Below are positions 13,076 to 21,867 of a DNA stretch of 64,000 bases, piece by piece. Both the position numbers and the translations under genes were made by a program. Under the pieces are notes generated by a model. That model saw nothing but the letters and a program-made list of their open reading frames with translations. It made no database searches and was not told the origin of the DNA. Each line of letters opens with the position of its first letter. Within the stretch, counting starts at the first letter, position 1. Source of the DNA: Acidobacteriota bacterium (GTDB lineage Bacteria; Acidobacteriota; Vicinamibacteria; Fen-336); contig JAJDNS010000081.1 of the NCBI GenBank assembly GCA_022340585.1, forward strand, positions 1 through 64,000, written 5' to 3'.

Positions 13076-14599
<1,524 letters not shown>

Positions 14600-14628
14600 G
14601 ATGCCTCCAGGGAAGTCCAAACCCTCTG

Positions 14629-14634
14629 ATTCTA
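14629..14634 (-). promoter_or_regulatory. -10 box for the ALDH7 gene
   Basis: TAGAAT on the minus strand about 30 nt upstream of the chosen ATG. Confidence 0.55.
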
Positions 14635-14674
14635 CATTCCGAGGACCGAACCTTCACTCTCACCGTCGCGGCGT

Positions 14675-14680
14675 TAGACT
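14675..14680 (+). promoter_or_regulatory. -10 box for the DsrE-like gene
   Basis: TAGACT (GTTAGACT) 18 nt before the ATG, leaving a leader of roughly 10-12 nt that includes GGGGGG. Confidence 0.55.
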
Positions 14681-14698
14681 GTCCCCGGGGGGTGTGTC

Positions 14699-15145
14699 AT
14701 GTCAGAGAACCCGGCGGGCCGGCGGGTGGCCCTCGTGTGCTCCAACTTCACCATGCAGAGTGCCTTCGGCCTGCTCATCCTGGCCCTGAACTCGGCCCGG
14801 CTGGGCTACGAGACCATGATCTACTTCACCTTCGAGGGGCTCAACATGATCCGCCCCGGGAAGCTCGCGGACCTGAGGTACTACCCAACGGGCGTGAACC
14901 CCTCCGAGAAGAAGGTGGAGGAGTACTCGGCGGAGCTCCACGAGCAGATGGACAAGAAGGACATCCCCTACTGCGAAGACATGCTCGAGATGGCGCACCA
15001 CGAGGGGGTGCGCTTTCTCGCGTGCAAGACCAGCGCCGACCTGTTCGACCTGGAGCAGAAGGACTTCATGGAAGGGGTCGAGATCATGCTCGCCTCCGAC
15101 TTCCTGAAGCAGGCCACGGGCTCGGATCTGCACATGGTCTTCTGA
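14699..15145 (+). CDS. DsrE/DsrF-like family protein
   Basis: A 148-aa cytosolic protein with the DsrE-like Rossmann pattern: RVALVCSNFTMQSAFGLLILALNSARLGYETMIYFTFEGL at the N-terminus and VRFLACKTSADLF near residue 105, whose cysteine is the conserved position of the family. DsrE-like proteins carry or relay sulfur, or act as accessory factors in sulfur trafficking. It lies 31 nt upstream of the sulfatase remnant on the same strand, but with that gene broken the functional link is only suggestive. Confidence 0.78.
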   Translation: MSENPAGRRVALVCSNFTMQSAFGLLILALNSARLGYETMIYFTFEGLNMIRPGKLADLRYYPTGVNPSEKKVEEYSAELHEQMDKKDIPYCEDMLEMAHHEGVRFLACKTSADLFDLEQKDFMEGVEIMLASDFLKQATGSDLHMVF

Positions 15146-15176
15146 TGGGCGATTCCTGGTCACCGCGGCGGCCCCC

Positions 15177-15836
15177 ATGACCCCGGTGCGCAGCGTTCTG
15201 CTGCTCGGCTTGCTGCTCCTGCTGCCCACGCCCGCGGCCGCGGCGAAGGGACCCAACATCCTCTGGGTCACCGTGGAGGACATGAGCCCGCGTCTCGCCT
15301 CCTACGGGGACCACACCGTCTCCACCCCCCGTCTCGACCGCCTGGCCCGCGAGGGGGTGCGCCACACCCGGGCCTTCGGCGTGTACGGCGTCTGCGCCCC
15401 CAACCGCCACGCCCTGATCATGGGGATGTACCCCACCTCCACCGGGGCAATGGCCATGCGTACCTGGAAGCGCACCGCGGCCCTCGACCAGATCACCGAC
15501 CCCGAGCTCCTGGCCATTCCCACCTACGAGGCCACGCCCCCGCCCGAGGCTCGCTGCTTCCCGGAGTACCTGCGGGCCGCCGGCTACTTCTGCACCAACA
15601 ACGCCAAGACCGACTACCAGTTCCAGGACCCGATGACCGCCGGGGACGAGTCGGGGACCGAGGCACACTGGCGGCACCGTCCCCGGGCCGACGTGCCCTT
15701 CTTCTCCGTCTTCAACTTCACCGTCACCCACGAGAGCGGGACCTTCGAGCCCCGCTCGCCGGCGGTGACCGATCCCGACCTGAGTCGTGCTCTCGCCCTG
15801 CTACCCCGACACCCCCATCGTGCGGCGCGACCCTGA
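15177..15836 (+). pseudogene. Truncated, frameshifted sulfatase (N-terminal part)
   Basis: Signal peptide (LLLGLLLLLPTPAAAA) followed by a formylglycine-type sulfatase start: NILWVTVEDMSP (metal Asp) and the activation motif CAPNR in GVYGVCAPNRHALIMGMYP. Sulfatases run to about 450-550 aa; this stops at 219. Near 15800 the frame slips: an adjacent frame reads YPDTPIVRRD, a normal continuation for this family. Sequence then changes abruptly into a family I repeat at 15836, whose first bases supply the stop. The catalytic C-terminal half, with the second metal-ligand set, is missing. Not expected to be functional. Confidence 0.85.
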
Positions 15837-15906
15837 GGGGTCAGGTCGTGAATGTTGAATCGTGTCCTCCCGGGAGGACGTTTCGGATCCCAGTTCCCGA
15901 TCTCAG
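15836..15906. repeat. Family I repeat, partial copy B
   Basis: The left part is identical to copy A for about 35 bases (AGGGGTCAGGTCGTGAAT, GTTGAATCGTGTCCTCC), with the inner GTCCTCCCGGGAGGAC hairpin intact. The right part has diverged and the terminal arm is lost. It sits exactly where the sulfatase remnant ends. The roughly 85 bases after it, up to 15991, show nothing recognisable. Confidence 0.8.
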
Positions 15907-15991
15907 GCGCGCTCCCCCAGGGGTTTCCGGCACGCCGCACGGGCCGGCCAGGGTAGACGTCGCAAGGCGGTGACGCACCATGCCCGCGATT

Positions 15992-16630
15992 CTACCGAGA
16001 GGGAATGCCCTGCAGCTTCTCGATCATCTTCGCGGCGTTCTCGTTCGACGGGTCGAGGCGCAGGGACTCGCGGTAGCGGGCGATCGCCGCGTCGCGCTGG
16101 CCGCCTGCGGCCAGGGCCTCTCCCAGGCTGTCGTGGGCGTTGGCGGACTCGGGGTAGCGGGCCACGTTGAGGCGGAGGATCGCCGCCGCATCCTCCGGAC
16201 GCTCCCGCTCGAGGAGGTCGTAGCCCAGGTCGTTGATCGTCTCTTCCGTGCTCACGCCCGACCCGCGGGGATCGTCCGCGAAGCTCGCGTACGCGTCCCT
16301 CGCTCCGTCGAGGTCCTCCTCGAGAAGCCGAGCTCTCATCGTGTCCAGGAGGTCGTCGGTGGGCTCCGCGAGGTGCGGGTCGTAGACGGCCGCGACGCGA
16401 GCCGCCAGCCGATCGGGATCGAACCGCGCGGCGGCTCCGTTCGCCAGAACGATCACGGTGAGTCGTTCGTCGAGGAACCGCCGGATCGTCGTGAGCCCGC
16501 CGCCTTCGTGACCGGCGGAGCGCCGGCCGTCGCCGTGGCTCTTGATGTCCCAGCCGAGGCCGTAGGTCGAGACCGTTCCGTCGTTCAGCGTGGGCTCGTC
16601 CCAGAGGAGGGCCAGACCGCGAAGAACGCG
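15992..16630 (-). pseudogene. 5'-truncated serine hydrolase (beta-lactamase family) with C-terminal TPR
   Basis: An open frame from 16630 reads the C-terminal part of a class C beta-lactamase-like serine hydrolase: YGLGWDIKSHGDG, then GHEGGGLTTIRRFLDERLT (the H-x-G box that takes the KTG role), VIVLANG, and a TPR-like tail (NAHDSLGEALAAGGQRDA). The N-terminal half with the SxxK nucleophile is absent. Upstream the sequence becomes a family I repeat (copy D). It lies downstream of BlaI- and BlaR1-like genes on the same strand, so it may be the remnant of their target gene. A GTG at 16456 could start a residual peptide. Confidence 0.8.
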
Positions 16631-16631
16631 A

Positions 16632-16711
16632 AGGGGTCAGGTCTCGTTTGTAGCATTGTGTCCTCGCCAGGGGACGTTTCTGGGGCCCGATGCCACACTC
16701 AGGACCTGAGC
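16632..16711. repeat. Family I repeat, diverged copy D
   Basis: Begins AGGGGTCAGGTCTCG and holds GTGTCCTC-gcca-GGGGACGTTTC in the same relative place as copies A-C. It fills the whole gap between the serine hydrolase remnant and the stop of the BlaR1-like gene. Confidence 0.75.
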
Positions 16712-19186
16712 CTACTGGCGGAGGGCGGCGAGGGCGGCTTCGAGGCGGCGGATCCTCACCTGGAGGTCGGGGGTGGTGGTGCCTTCGGCCACGATCTGGT
16801 GGAGGGCCTCGAGGTGGGCCTCCATCTGGAGCTCCAGGTCTTCCGAGGCGCGCACGAGGCGCTCCTGCTGGAGGTGCTGACGGCTGGACTCGGCCTCCCG
16901 CCGCATCTCCTGGGCCTGGGCCCGCGCGGTCTCGGCCTCGGCGACCCGTCCGGCGGCCTCGTGCTGGCGCGCCTCCAGCTCCTTCGCGCGCGCCGCCTGC
17001 GCGGCCTGGTGGGCCTCCAGCTCCCGCTGCCGCATGCGGTGGCTCTCCTGCTGTCGTCCGCGCGCCCGCTCGTACTCGCCCCGCGCGGCCTCGTCGTCGC
17101 CCCCGGCCATCTGCCCGGCAAAACGCAACTCGGCCAGCTGGGCCCGGTTCTCGATCTCCAGGGTCTCGCGCTGCAGCTCGAGCTCCTTCGCCTCCCGCTC
17201 CAGGCGGCGCTGCCCGTCCTCCGCTTCGAGCCTGGCCAGCTCGGCCCGGACCTGGGCGGCCTCGGCCTCCTGGCCGTCGCGCTCCAGGGCGCGCATCCGG
17301 TCGGCGGTCGCGCGCAGGGCCTTCTCCTGCTCCTTCTGCTCGGCGAGCCACCGTTGCTCCAGCTCGAGCCCGCGACGCTGGATCGCCGCTCGCTCCGCGG
17401 CGGCCCGGGCGTGCTCCTCGACCAGGGCCGCTCGATCGGTCTCGCCGCGGGCCTTCAAGCGGTCGGCTTCGGCGCGCAACGCCTCCTGCTGAAGCCCCTC
17501 CTCGCGCTCCATCCGCTCCCGCGTGACCTCGAGCTCTCTCATGTGGAGCTCGGCGCGTTGCTCCTCCAGCTTCCGTTGCTGCTCTTCGAGCTCCCGGCGG
17601 GCGGCCTCGTCCTCTGGCGACTCTCCGGGAACGGTCAGGGCGATCCTGGGCGCGGAAGACGGGACGGGCGTGACCGCCGGGGCGGGCCGGGGCGCAGGAC
17701 GGGGCCGGGGCGGCGGGGCCGGGGCGACCACGGGGCGCGGTGCGGGAGCGGGGTGGGGCCGGGGCATGGGGCCCGAACCGACCGGGCCGGGCGAGACGGT
17801 GGCGGGCGGCGGTGCGGGCAGAGCCGGAGCCGCCAGGGGCGGCGGGGGAGCGTCGTCGGGGAGAGCCAGCGCCGGCGGCGGTGGAGGGGGCGCATCGTCG
17901 GGCGCAGCCGGAGCCGCCTCGGGCGCGGCCGGCGCGACCGTGGGGGGCGCCGGAGGCACCGGCTCAGCCGGGTCCGCGATCTCGGGCGCGGGGGGCGCCG
18001 GGGGCAGCTCCCCCTCCGCCGGGGCGGCCAGGGCCGGCTCCTCGTCGGTCGCGGGCGAATCGGCCTGCGTCGGGAACGCCGCGAGGCCCACTACCGCGGC
18101 GGCGGCGAGGGCCAGGCGAGCAGGAAGGGCGAGGCGGGGCGTCGGACGCGTCATCATGAGGATCTCCTTCAGTCGGGCTTCGAGATCACGGACGGGACCG
18201 GCGCCGGAGGCGCCGACGGGCAGGGGATCGGGCTCCCCGGCCACGAAGTCGAGGCTCCTGATGAGCCCCTCGGCATAGGCCTTGGCGGAGGCGGGCATCA
18301 CGCGGAGCACCCACTCGTCGCAGCACCGCTCCTCGGCGCGACGCAGCGCGCGCCGCACCCACCAGGTCACCGGGTACCACCAGAAGACCACGGTGACCGT
18401 CAGCTCGAGCATGCGCACCCAGTGGTCCCGCCGCCGGACGTGGGCGAGCTCGTGGACGAGCAGCGTGTCGCGCTGCTCGTCGCTCAGCACTGGCAGGAGA
18501 TCCGCCGGCATCAGGAGAAGGGGACCCCGCCGGCCGGGCCAGAGCATGGGAGGCACCCGTGCCGGAAGAAGGAGGACCGGGGGCGTGCGGCGCACCCCCA
18601 GGCGACCGGCAAGCGCCGCGGTGTGCTCGGCGAGCGACGGGGGCGCGGGAGCGGCGAGGCGCAGGAGCCGCCGGAAGCGTCGGACCCGCAGGACGGTCAG
18701 GGCGGCCACAGCGAGGGCGCCCGCGAAGAGCCCGGCCCAGGCCAGCGCCGCGAGGTCGGGGAAGCCCCGCGCGTCGGCGGCCGGCGTCGCCGGCAGGGGG
18801 AGCGCGCGGAGAGGGGCGGGCCCGAGCCCCGAGGAAGCGGACGATGTCTCCTCGCCGAGCGCGGGCACGGCCGCACCCTCCATGGCCAGGAGGAGCTCCA
18901 CCGGGGTCGGGGCGGACCTCGTGGGAATGGCGGCCCGCGCCGCGTCGCCGTCGGCCTCGACGACCACCGTCACCGGTCCATCGGGGGCGGTCAGGGCGGG
19001 CAGCCTCCACTCGGGCAGCAGCGGGAGGGGAACGAGGGGAGGAGTGACGAGCTTGACCAGGGCCAGCACCCAGAGGCCGTGCACGAGGCTCTGACGGCGG
19101 ACTCGACGGGCGATCCCCCAGGCGGCGAGGGCCAGAAGCCCGGCGGCCAAGGCGTTCGCGAGGATCAGGCGGAGAAGCTCGCTCAT
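16712..19186 (-). CDS. BlaR1/MecR1-like M56 membrane metallopeptidase with Pro-rich linker and coiled coil
   Basis: An 824-aa protein. N-terminal membrane segments (about 5-25, 38-55 and 145-168) flank the M56 zinc protease domain, whose motif is VHELAH (244-249), with a likely zinc Glu in RRAEERCCDEW. After a further hydrophobic segment (about 365-385), a Pro/Ala-rich linker (about 390-525) leads to a Glu/Arg/Ala-rich coiled coil (about 530-800). The penicillin-binding sensor domain of true BlaR1 is absent and replaced by linker plus coiled coil. The start overlaps the BlaI-like stop by 4 nt. Expected role: sense an envelope signal and trigger cleavage of the repressor. The signal is unknown. 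Confidence 0.87.
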   Translation of the reverse strand: MSELLRLILANALAAGLLALAAWGIARRVRRQSLVHGLWVLALVKLVTPPLVPLPLLPEWRLPALTAPDGPVTVVVEADGDAARAAIPTRSAPTPVELLLAMEGAAVPALGEETSSASSGLGPAPLRALPLPATPAADARGFPDLAALAWAGLFAGALAVAALTVLRVRRFRRLLRLAAPAPPSLAEHTAALAGRLGVRRTPPVLLLPARVPPMLWPGRRGPLLLMPADLLPVLSDEQRDTLLVHELAHVRRRDHWVRMLELTVTVVFWWYPVTWWVRRALRRAEERCCDEWVLRVMPASAKAYAEGLIRSLDFVAGEPDPLPVGASGAGPVRDLEARLKEILMMTRPTPRLALPARLALAAAAVVGLAAFPTQADSPATDEEPALAAPAEGELPPAPPAPEIADPAEPVPPAPPTVAPAAPEAAPAAPDDAPPPPPPALALPDDAPPPPLAAPALPAPPPATVSPGPVGSGPMPRPHPAPAPRPVVAPAPPPRPRPAPRPAPAVTPVPSSAPRIALTVPGESPEDEAARRELEEQQRKLEEQRAELHMRELEVTRERMEREEGLQQEALRAEADRLKARGETDRAALVEEHARAAAERAAIQRRGLELEQRWLAEQKEQEKALRATADRMRALERDGQEAEAAQVRAELARLEAEDGQRRLEREAKELELQRETLEIENRAQLAELRFAGQMAGGDDEAARGEYERARGRQQESHRMRQRELEAHQAAQAARAKELEARQHEAAGRVAEAETARAQAQEMRREAESSRQHLQQERLVRASEDLELQMEAHLEALHQIVAEGTTTPDLQVRIRRLEAALAALRQ

Positions 19187-19575
19187 GACTCCGTCCTCCG
19201 CGCGGCCCGGTCCACCACGCGTCTCAGCTCCCGGAGCTCCTCCCGCGAGAGCTTACCCGCGCTCACGAGCTGGGTGAGGAGGGGAGTCAGGGATCCGTCG
19301 CAGAGCTCCTCGGCGGTGTCGCGGAGGCGTCGGGCCACGAGCTCCTCGCGCTCCACGGTGGCGTGGTAGACGTTCTGTCGCCCCTCCGCGGTCCGGGCCA
19401 CGTGCCCCTTGCCCTCGAGGCGCTCGAGGAGCTTCTGGACGGTGGCGTACTCCGACGTCCCGCCGCGGGGGTACAGACCGTCGGTCAGGGCCCGGATGGT
19501 GGCGGGACCGACGTCCCACAGGGCTCGGAGCACGTCGAGCTCGGCGTCGGTGACATCGCGAGGTCGTCCGGCCAT
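19183..19575 (-). CDS. BlaI/MecI/CopY-family transcriptional repressor
   Basis: A 130-aa winged-helix repressor: DVTDAELDVLRALWDVGPATIRAL (helix-turn-helix), SEYATVQKLLERLEGKGHV (recognition helix region with the conserved TVQ/LLxRLxxKG pattern) and a C-terminal dimerisation helix. Full family length. The start MAGRPRD is preferred because AGGAGG lies 6 nt upstream; a longer reading would run into the operator region. It forms an operon with the M56 protease and should repress it from two AGAC-N5-GTCT sites just upstream. Proteolytic inactivation is the known mechanism of this family. Confidence 0.92.
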   Translation of the reverse strand: MAGRPRDVTDAELDVLRALWDVGPATIRALTDGLYPRGGTSEYATVQKLLERLEGKGHVARTAEGRQNVYHATVEREELVARRLRDTAEELCDGSLTPLLTQLVSAGKLSREELRELRRVVDRAARRTES

Positions 19576-19614
19576 CGGGATCCTCCTGGAGTCGTGCGTC
19601 GCTACCAGAGTATT

Positions 19615-19775: not shown

Positions 19776-19855
19776 GGAAGCTCCGGGTGTAGGCTTCCGG
19801 CCAGGCGGCACGGGGTGGCCGGGGCCACCCGTCAGTGCCCGAGGGCTCTCATCCA

Positions 19856-21046
19856 ATGCTGAAACGCCTTGTCGTCCTGCTCACCGTCCTCGTCGGCTCG
19901 TCGATCCTGTTGCCGGATCTGGACGCGCACGGCGACGCACGACCCCGGCTCCGACAGCTCGGAATCGCTACCGGGGTCCTCCAGCCCGGTCCCCTGAACG
20001 CCATCACCGACGTCCGCGGGGTCCGGGTGGGCCACACGACGCTGGTGGTGGGCGAGGCGGTTCGGACCGGCGTCACCGCGATCCTCCCCCACGGGGGGAA
20101 CCTCTTCCAGGAGAAGGTCCCGGCTGCCGTCTTCGCGGCCAACGCCTTCGGCAAGGCCGCGGGCTTCCTGCAGGTGAAGGAGCTTGGGACCCTGGAGACG
20201 CCGATCGTCCTCACCAACACCCTCTGCGTGGGAACGGCGATGCAGGCGGTCGTGGACTGGACGCTGGCTCAGCCGGGCAACGAAGCCGTCCGCTCGGTCA
20301 ATGCCGTCGTCGGCGAGACCAACGACGGCTATCTCAACGACATCCGCCACTGCGCGGTGACTGCCGAGCACGTTGCCGCCGCCATCGAGGGCGCGGCTAC
20401 GGGACCGGTCGAGGAGGGATCGGTGGGGGCCGGCACCGGCACCTCCGCCTTCGGCTGGAAGGGAGGGATCGGCACCTCGTCGCGTGCGCTTCCCGAGACG
20501 CTGGGAGGCTACACGGTGGGGGCGCTGGTGCAGTCGAACTTCGGGGGGGTTCTGACCATCGACGGCCTGCGGGTGGGGGAGCGGGTGGGGAGGATTGCCT
20601 TCCAGGATGCGTGGAGGGGGGGGCGGGATGCGCTGACGCCTCCGGGTGGGGAGGACGATGGCTCGTGCATGATCGTGCTCGCGACCGACGCCCCGGTCTC
20701 TCCCCATCACCTGGAGCGCATGGCCCGCCGCGCGGTGATGGGCCTGGCCCGAACGGGTTCGTTCATGCACCACGGCTCGGGCGACTTCGTGGTCGCCTTC
20801 TCGACGCGCAACCCCGAGCCGTACCGGAAGCCCGCACCCACGGCCACCGTCGAGCTTCTCTATGGCGACTCCGTGAGCCCGCTCTTCCTCGCCACGGTGG
20901 AGGCGGTGGAGGAGGCGGTGCTGAACTCGCTCCTCAGGGCCACCACGGTCAAGGGCCACGGCCCCCACCCGGTCGAAGCACTTCCCCTGGAGCCCCTGCG
21001 TCAGATGATCGAAGAGCGAAGGAAGGGGTCAGGTCGTGAATCGTGA
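19856..21046 (+). CDS. P1 (DmpA/BapA-type) aminopeptidase, exported
   Basis: A 396-aa N-terminal nucleophile peptidase (L-aminopeptidase/D-esterase family S58) with a signal peptide (MLKRLVVLLTVLVGSSILL). NAITDVRGVRVGHTTL and GTGTSAFGWKGGIGTSSR are family hallmarks, and the self-cleavage Gly-Ser is in DDGSCMIVLATD, so the mature enzyme should be two chains with Ser as nucleophile. A GTG seven codons upstream is the alternative start; 19856 gives the cleaner signal peptide. The last residues (KGSGRES) and the stop codon are encoded by family I copy C, so the native C-terminus was replaced by repeat sequence. Confidence 0.88.
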   Translation: MLKRLVVLLTVLVGSSILLPDLDAHGDARPRLRQLGIATGVLQPGPLNAITDVRGVRVGHTTLVVGEAVRTGVTAILPHGGNLFQEKVPAAVFAANAFGKAAGFLQVKELGTLETPIVLTNTLCVGTAMQAVVDWTLAQPGNEAVRSVNAVVGETNDGYLNDIRHCAVTAEHVAAAIEGAATGPVEEGSVGAGTGTSAFGWKGGIGTSSRALPETLGGYTVGALVQSNFGGVLTIDGLRVGERVGRIAFQDAWRGGRDALTPPGGEDDGSCMIVLATDAPVSPHHLERMARRAVMGLARTGSFMHHGSGDFVVAFSTRNPEPYRKPAPTATVELLYGDSVSPLFLATVEAVEEAVLNSLLRATTVKGHGPHPVEALPLEPLRQMIEERRKGSGRES

Positions 21047-21106
21047 ATCGGGGCCCGAGAACGTCCTCTCGGGAGGACGGAATTCAACATTCACGACCTG
21101 ACCCCT
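21024..21106. repeat. Family I palindromic repeat, full copy C
   Basis: 83 bp, inverted relative to copy A, with the same perfect 18-bp terminal arms (21024-21041 and 21089-21106) and inner GTCCTC/GAGGAC hairpin. It is inserted tail-to-tail between two genes. The P1 peptidase stop lies inside it, and the HAD gene stop shares its last base, so it sets the end of both reading frames. Confidence 0.9.
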
Positions 21107-21867
21107 CAGGCCTCGTCGGGGACGAGCGCTCCGAGGTCGTCGACGACGATGTCGGCGCCGGCGTCCTTGAGGGCCTCAGGGTCGCCTTCCCGGTCGACGC
21201 CGATCACCAGACCGAAGCTGCCGTTGACGCCGGCCTTGACCCCGGCCAGGGCGTCCTCGACCACCACCGCCCGCACCGGCTCCACCCCGAGCAGCCGGGC
21301 CGCCTCCAGGAACGTGTCCGGCCGCGGCTTGCCCGGCAGCTTCTTCTGGGCCGCGACCACCCCGTCGACCCGGACCTCGAACAGGTCGCTGATGCCGGCG
21401 GCCTCGAGCACCGCCTCCGCGTTCTTGCTCGACGAGACGATGGCCTGGCGGATGACCTGCTCGTGGAGGTAGAAGACCAGCTTCACCGATCCCTCGAAGA
21501 CCTCCACGCCGTCGGTGGCCAGGACCTCCTGGATCATCTCGTTCTTCCGGTTGCCCAGACCGCAGACCGTCATCTGGTCCGGATCGTCCGAGGGCTCCCC
21601 CCGGGGGAGATCGATGCCCCGGGACTTCAGGAAGGTGGCCACCCCGTCGTAGCGCGGCCGGCCGTCGACGTAGGGCTTGTAGTCGTCCTCGATGTCGAAG
21701 GAGACGAACGGGGTCCCGGTGCGCTCGGCGTGCGCGGCCAGGAACTCGTCGAACATCTGCTTCCAGGCGCTGGCGTGGACGCTGGCGGTGGCGGTGATGA
21801 CGCCGTCGAGGTCGAAGAGGACGGCGTCGAAGCGTTTCCAGTCGACCCTGCTGTCACCGATGATCAT
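21106..21867 (-). CDS. HAD-family hydrolase, beta-phosphoglucomutase-like
   Basis: A 253-aa HAD phosphatase/phosphomutase. Motif I FDAVLFDLDGVITAT (nucleophile Asp and acid/base Asp), motif II IVSSSKN, motif III Lys in GKPRPDTF and motif IV VVEDALAGVKAG are all present, with a cap domain between motifs I and II. Close relatives are beta-phosphoglucomutases or sugar phosphatases used in disaccharide breakdown; here the cap sequence (DDYKPYVDGRPRYDGV) resembles that group. GGGAGGGATC precedes the ATG and TAGGCT at 21924-21919 is a likely -10, so it is probably transcribed apart from the GH78 gene upstream. Confidence 0.87.
   Translation of the reverse strand: MIIGDSRVDWKRFDAVLFDLDGVITATASVHASAWKQMFDEFLAAHAERTGTPFVSFDIEDDYKPYVDGRPRYDGVATFLKSRGIDLPRGEPSDDPDQMTVCGLGNRKNEMIQEVLATDGVEVFEGSVKLVFYLHEQVIRQAIVSSSKNAEAVLEAAGISDLFEVRVDGVVAAQKKLPGKPRPDTFLEAARLLGVEPVRAVVVEDALAGVKAGVNGSFGLVIGVDREGDPEALKDAGADIVVDDLGALVPDEA

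Follow-up and report, generated by a model that had tools for sequence, protein, structure and literature searches.

Two neighbouring genes in the window (the whole stretch of 64,000 nucleotides that was analysed), one for a sulfatase and the other for a serine hydrolase, are both pseudogenes cut at two copies, B and D, of a short dispersed repeat that we call family I. It is probable (about 0.6) that two separate element-linked deletions made both stumps, either through recombination with a copy that was later lost or through deletion from an element end. As it stands, the locus is a local scar left by DNA loss linked to the repeats, a case of ordinary genome decay and no new system. The features are collected in Table 1.

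Table 1. Positions of the gene remnants, repeat copies and associated genes (window coordinates, except for the transposase gene, which lies on another contig of the same genome)
Feature	Position	Strand	Remarks
Intact doublet	about 494-580 (497-577)		single long hairpin, z -8.75; abuts the stop of the SIS-domain gene (578-1615), gap 0
Sulfatase remnant	15177-15831	+	N-terminal ~200 residues; frameshift near 15790-15803; cut at copy B
Copy B	15832-15918	+	well-conserved left unit 15832-15885; right half decayed or absent
Serine hydrolase (beta-lactamase family) remnant	15992-16630	-	TPR repeats at the C-terminus; lacks the N-terminal catalytic part; cut at copy D
Copy D	16630-16714	+	decayed doublet whose right end extends over the M56 stop codon
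BlaR1-like peptidase M56 gene	16712-19186	-	PF05569 match; stop codon within the end of copy D
Intact doublet	about 21022-21108 (21025-21105)		hairpin z -8.56; between convergent S58 peptidase and HAD genes
Putative REP/TIR-associated tyrosine transposase (HuH Y1) gene	G000:C139:23970-24982		276 aa; PF01797

The two gene stumps and the copies that adjoin them

In a Pfam search the sulfatase open frame (15177-15836) matched PF00884 over profile positions 1-92 of 301 only, so that just the first third of the domain is left. Full-length homologues were found in the same genome (contig C10, a 775-aa open frame) and in the sister genome (G001:C72, 778 aa), and both continue for ~325 further residues past the cut. 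Alignment to these homologues showed that a small indel near 15790-15803 shifts the frame, that homology then resumes as ...YPDTPIVRRD, and that the last homologous base is 15831; copy B (CCTGAGGGGTCAGG...) starts at 15832 with no filler base. DNA identity to the sister-genome homologue drops from 23/30 over the 30 nt ending at 15831 to 5/30 over the next 30, and thus the sulfatase is cut flush with copy B, in agreement with the earlier note, which had the gene losing its C-terminal half there. The same note had the hydrolase losing its N-terminal half at copy D, and this too is borne out: the remnant keeps PF00144 positions 257-324 of 329 together with TPR repeats, and its similarity to ~42% identical homologues comes within ~8 codons of copy D, a boundary precise to a few codons. 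The open frame of the hydrolase is closed by a TGA lying within copy D. The missing half of either gene was not found as fragments in the rest of the assembly or in the window, which makes loss more likely than relocation, and next to copies B and D nothing is left of the distal part of either gene. Upstream of the hydrolase stump and on its strand come BlaI-like and BlaR1/M56 genes (15992-19575 overall); the order is that of a bla-type regulatory operon, here with a broken third gene.

The closest relative of copy B is the doublet at 494-580, to which its left 41 nt are 98% identical and its right half 66%. Copy D is 77% identical across the whole element to a doublet at position 21536 of contig C139, with both ends recognisable. 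When folded as single strands, B and D no longer form one hairpin, and the full-length hairpin is absent from copy B (z +1.0). The mosaic look of B, pristine on the left and decayed on the right, recurs at three single-headed copies (C132:21002, C8:39103 and C139:20527), which adjoin apparently intact genes; finding this pattern, which D shows as well, is favoured because an intact head was what identified a site as a copy. The idea that B and D are recombinant mosaic copies was set aside, since the pattern is suggestive and not diagnostic when other single-headed copies show it. An inverted match of 29 identical nt links copy B (15832-15860) with the HAD-side end of the 21025 doublet (21082-21110). 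It includes CCTGA, which lies outside the usual element end and at the HAD gene contains the gene's own stop (the TGA is conserved in the sister genome); the match is unexplained, and may be chance or the trace of an exchange.

As the earlier note stated, the two copies have the same orientation and lie about 800 bp apart, their starts being separated by 796 nt on the same strand. From this it offered recombination between the repeats, with loss of the intervening DNA, as a simple explanation. Involvement of the repeats is upheld by the flush sulfatase junction and by the absence of the missing halves, but a simple crossover between B and D is not: the arrangement excludes it as the cause. Such an exchange would leave one copy and remove ~720 bp, whereas both copies and the hydrolase remnant between them remain. 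Moreover, the two repeats are not near-identical (71% identity over 72 nt); just 12 nt, their longest exact run in common, would have been available. We also considered a composite transposon, an 880-bp B-D unit carrying the hydrolase piece into the sulfatase gene, and rejected it since the sequence after D is not the C-terminal part of the sulfatase.

The source genome is a draft of 231 contigs with 5% estimated contamination, and the sister genome likewise has contig breaks flanking the block, where C241 and C273 stop at window positions ~14,500 and ~19,600. These points would fit a short-read assembly that joined unrelated pieces at the repeats, a reading that we nevertheless hold to be very unlikely: the longest exact match to any other compared copy is 36 nt for B and 27 nt for D, and typical assembly k-mers are longer than 36 nt. 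Misassembly at the locus is unlikely. Orthologues of the DsrE, sulfatase, hydrolase and M56 genes were not found in the sister genome, the one same-genus genome compared, and a protein scan of 84,980 genomes with DsrE gave a single partial match, at a contig end; neither comparison yielded a relative with the ancestral arrangement of the locus. The block from 14500 to 19600 may be an insertion specific to this genome or merely unassembled in the sister genome.

The repeat family and its putative transposase

The family I head, GGGGTCAGGTC, has 166 exact occurrences in this genome compared with 6 for a reversed control pattern, so the repeat family stands far above chance. In the sister genome the counts are 18 and 2, and in other family members the head is mostly near the control level. 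Most intact copies in this subfamily are doublets of ~81 nt whose ends are inverted and whose inner stem reads CGTCCTC...GAGGACG, and doublets make up 36 of the 74 sites examined. The heads start with (A)AGGGGTCAGGTC, and GTAG occurs only internally, in some copies, so that these are not GTAG-tagged REP units. The string GGGGTCAG, which fits the published GGGGWSAS motif, is present in all heads, the head itself having been the search pattern. An Rfam search matched the repeat to no known structured RNA, and the 11-nt head was not found in the literature as a repeat of this type. Family I consists of non-autonomous REPIN-like elements, ~81-nt inverted doublets that decay to ~50-nt singlets.

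A candidate enzyme for these elements is encoded on contig C139, where AAAGGGGTCAGGTCCCAAACGTAGCC is found in inverted orientation at both ends of the transposase locus. The protein scored 76 bits (E 2.7e-21) against NF047646 (REP_Tyr_transpos), for which the curated cut-off is 80; it contains PNHYH, and its matches to a C-terminal helix-turn-helix are weak and below the cut-off. With its Y1_Tnp core, NHYH motif and possible helix-turn-helix, the sequence resembles HuH Y1 subclass 2.1 (PMC6006769), in which most TIRYTs fall and which took in 291 of the 292 RAYT group 1 sequences from Bertels et al. 2017 (PMC6006769). Family I elements share their terminal repeats with this gene and are predicted, as the most likely account, to be copied by its product through single-stranded DNA. 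A search for Y1 transposases found none in the sister genome and one partial match in the other family genomes covered. Around the gene, copies form a dense cluster of about nine sites within 14 kb (C139:10635-24982).

The element family is new and belongs to the known TIRYT/TIRtron and REPIN kind. TIRYT genes are flanked by inverted repeats with GGGGWSAS, and their repeats are dispersed as singlets and dimers (Di Nocera et al. 2013; PMC3733652). The same arrangement is found here, a putative RAYT-type HuH Y1 gene within long inverted repeats of that motif (here GGGGTCAG) along with singlets and dimers elsewhere, although the sequence is different and lineage-specific, and further doublet subfamilies share the head. 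One of these (loci L091, L092, L105 and L155) has ~105-nt doublets (CTGGGGTCAGGTCTGTTGAG...) with G-rich spacers and little but the head in common with family I; another has doublets of ~70 nt with TTGCATTTTGCATC-like ends. In their inverted repeats folding into one hairpin, their many dispersed extragenic copies and their decayed singlets, the elements are also like REPINs mobilised by RAYTs (PMC3116915, PMC8049555), whose singlets are, for the most part, regarded as leftovers of full doublets in decay (PMC8049555), but their ends are a TIRYT-type TIR and not a GTAG-tagged REP unit. A lineage-specific TIRYT-type expansion is thereby documented along with its putative transposase gene.

Usual placement of copies relative to genes

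Genes around the 74 sites, which include the other same-head subfamilies and probably chance head matches (notably 10 within genes), were called by a codon-usage script. Among gene 3' ends that face an element, 31 of 68 overlap it or lie within 8 nt, compared with 1 of 39 gene 5' ends. A flush gene end is the rule here, and therefore by itself is no sign of truncation. Published cases include REP elements that lie at the 3' end of a gene and even provide its stop codon (PMC3733652). Copy B, downstream of the hydrolase, and copy D, overlapping the M56 stop, both occupy ordinary element positions on their right side.

The doublet at 21025-21105 allowed a comparison with an empty site, as it is absent at the syntenic position in the sister genome (G001:C273). 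The S58 (DmpA-type) peptidase gene (19835-21046) ends here in an element-encoded KGSGRES followed by a stop, which replaces the last residues found in the sister genome; the comparison thus shows how the end of a peptidase gene came to be supplied by one of the copies. On the other side, the stop codon of the HAD gene is at the same position in the sister genome. A relative with the same gene end and no repeat would, according to the earlier note, indicate that truncation came first; for this one doublet, where such an end was looked at, it means that the HAD end is native and was not made by the element.

Pfam scans of 28 genes with flush 3' ends and 20 with 5' ends facing an element revealed no other domain cut at an element; a few of these 48 neighbours had no Pfam match and are uninformative. 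The sulfatase and hydrolase truncations are true exceptions among the genes that adjoin elements, and the locus is exceptional. Copies normally sit harmlessly at the 3' end of a complete gene, and a pair of neighbouring copies that each adjoin a truncated gene is thus a departure from usual element behaviour.

Possible origin of the truncations

These observations can be brought together if there were two separate deletions, one with its join at B and the other with its join at D. B would have been joined by its left end (head) to the sulfatase codons for RRD, and D by its head to the C-terminal part of the hydrolase, while the other side of each copy would have stayed where elements usually lie, near the 3' end of the neighbouring gene. 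The DNA lost would be the C-terminal part of the sulfatase and the N-terminal part of the hydrolase. The route may have been recombination of B and D with further copies in the same orientation, since lost, or a deletion that in each case began at an element end. The exact runs of 36 nt (B) and 27 nt (D) among the compared copies are marginal for RecA-dependent recombination. A role of the elements in the deletions is something we infer, as would be any choice between these two routes.

Another account is that elements inserted in the two genes, whose distal parts were later lost through unrelated deletions or drift. Elements of this type can lie within genes in other genomes (PMC3733652), and the frameshift in the sulfatase remnant points to a locus that was decaying anyway. 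This account would need an unrelated deletion to begin right beside an element twice within 0.8 kb and to leave nothing of the distal parts beside the copies, and we consider it doubtful. It is also unlikely, and decidedly so, that the genes were already stumps and that elements moved into the junctions afterwards. The preference of these elements for gene 3' ends and the native flush end at 21106 are in keeping with such an order of events; however, sulfatase homology ends where B starts without filler, which makes a later landing of an element near an existing truncation unlikely, and so precise a landing would be needed at both stumps.

Separate deletions joined at the elements, the reading that we prefer, have a parallel in insertion sequences, where recombination between copies and adjacent deletions leave gene stumps (PMC11708052). 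Mobile-element copies lie at the deletion joins in both cases, but the published examples concern full insertion sequences in laboratory evolution, not elements of REPIN size. The truncations described here would be a rare case from nature in which elements of REPIN size mark deletions that destroyed genes. An unlikely variant, which we mention tentatively, is that the TIRYT-type transposase cut at an element head and ligated that head into the interior of a distant gene, deleting the DNA between. If true, such one-ended joining would mean that a REPIN-sized element drives gene truncation directly, without homologous recombination, and would add a mutational role for transposases that look domesticated.
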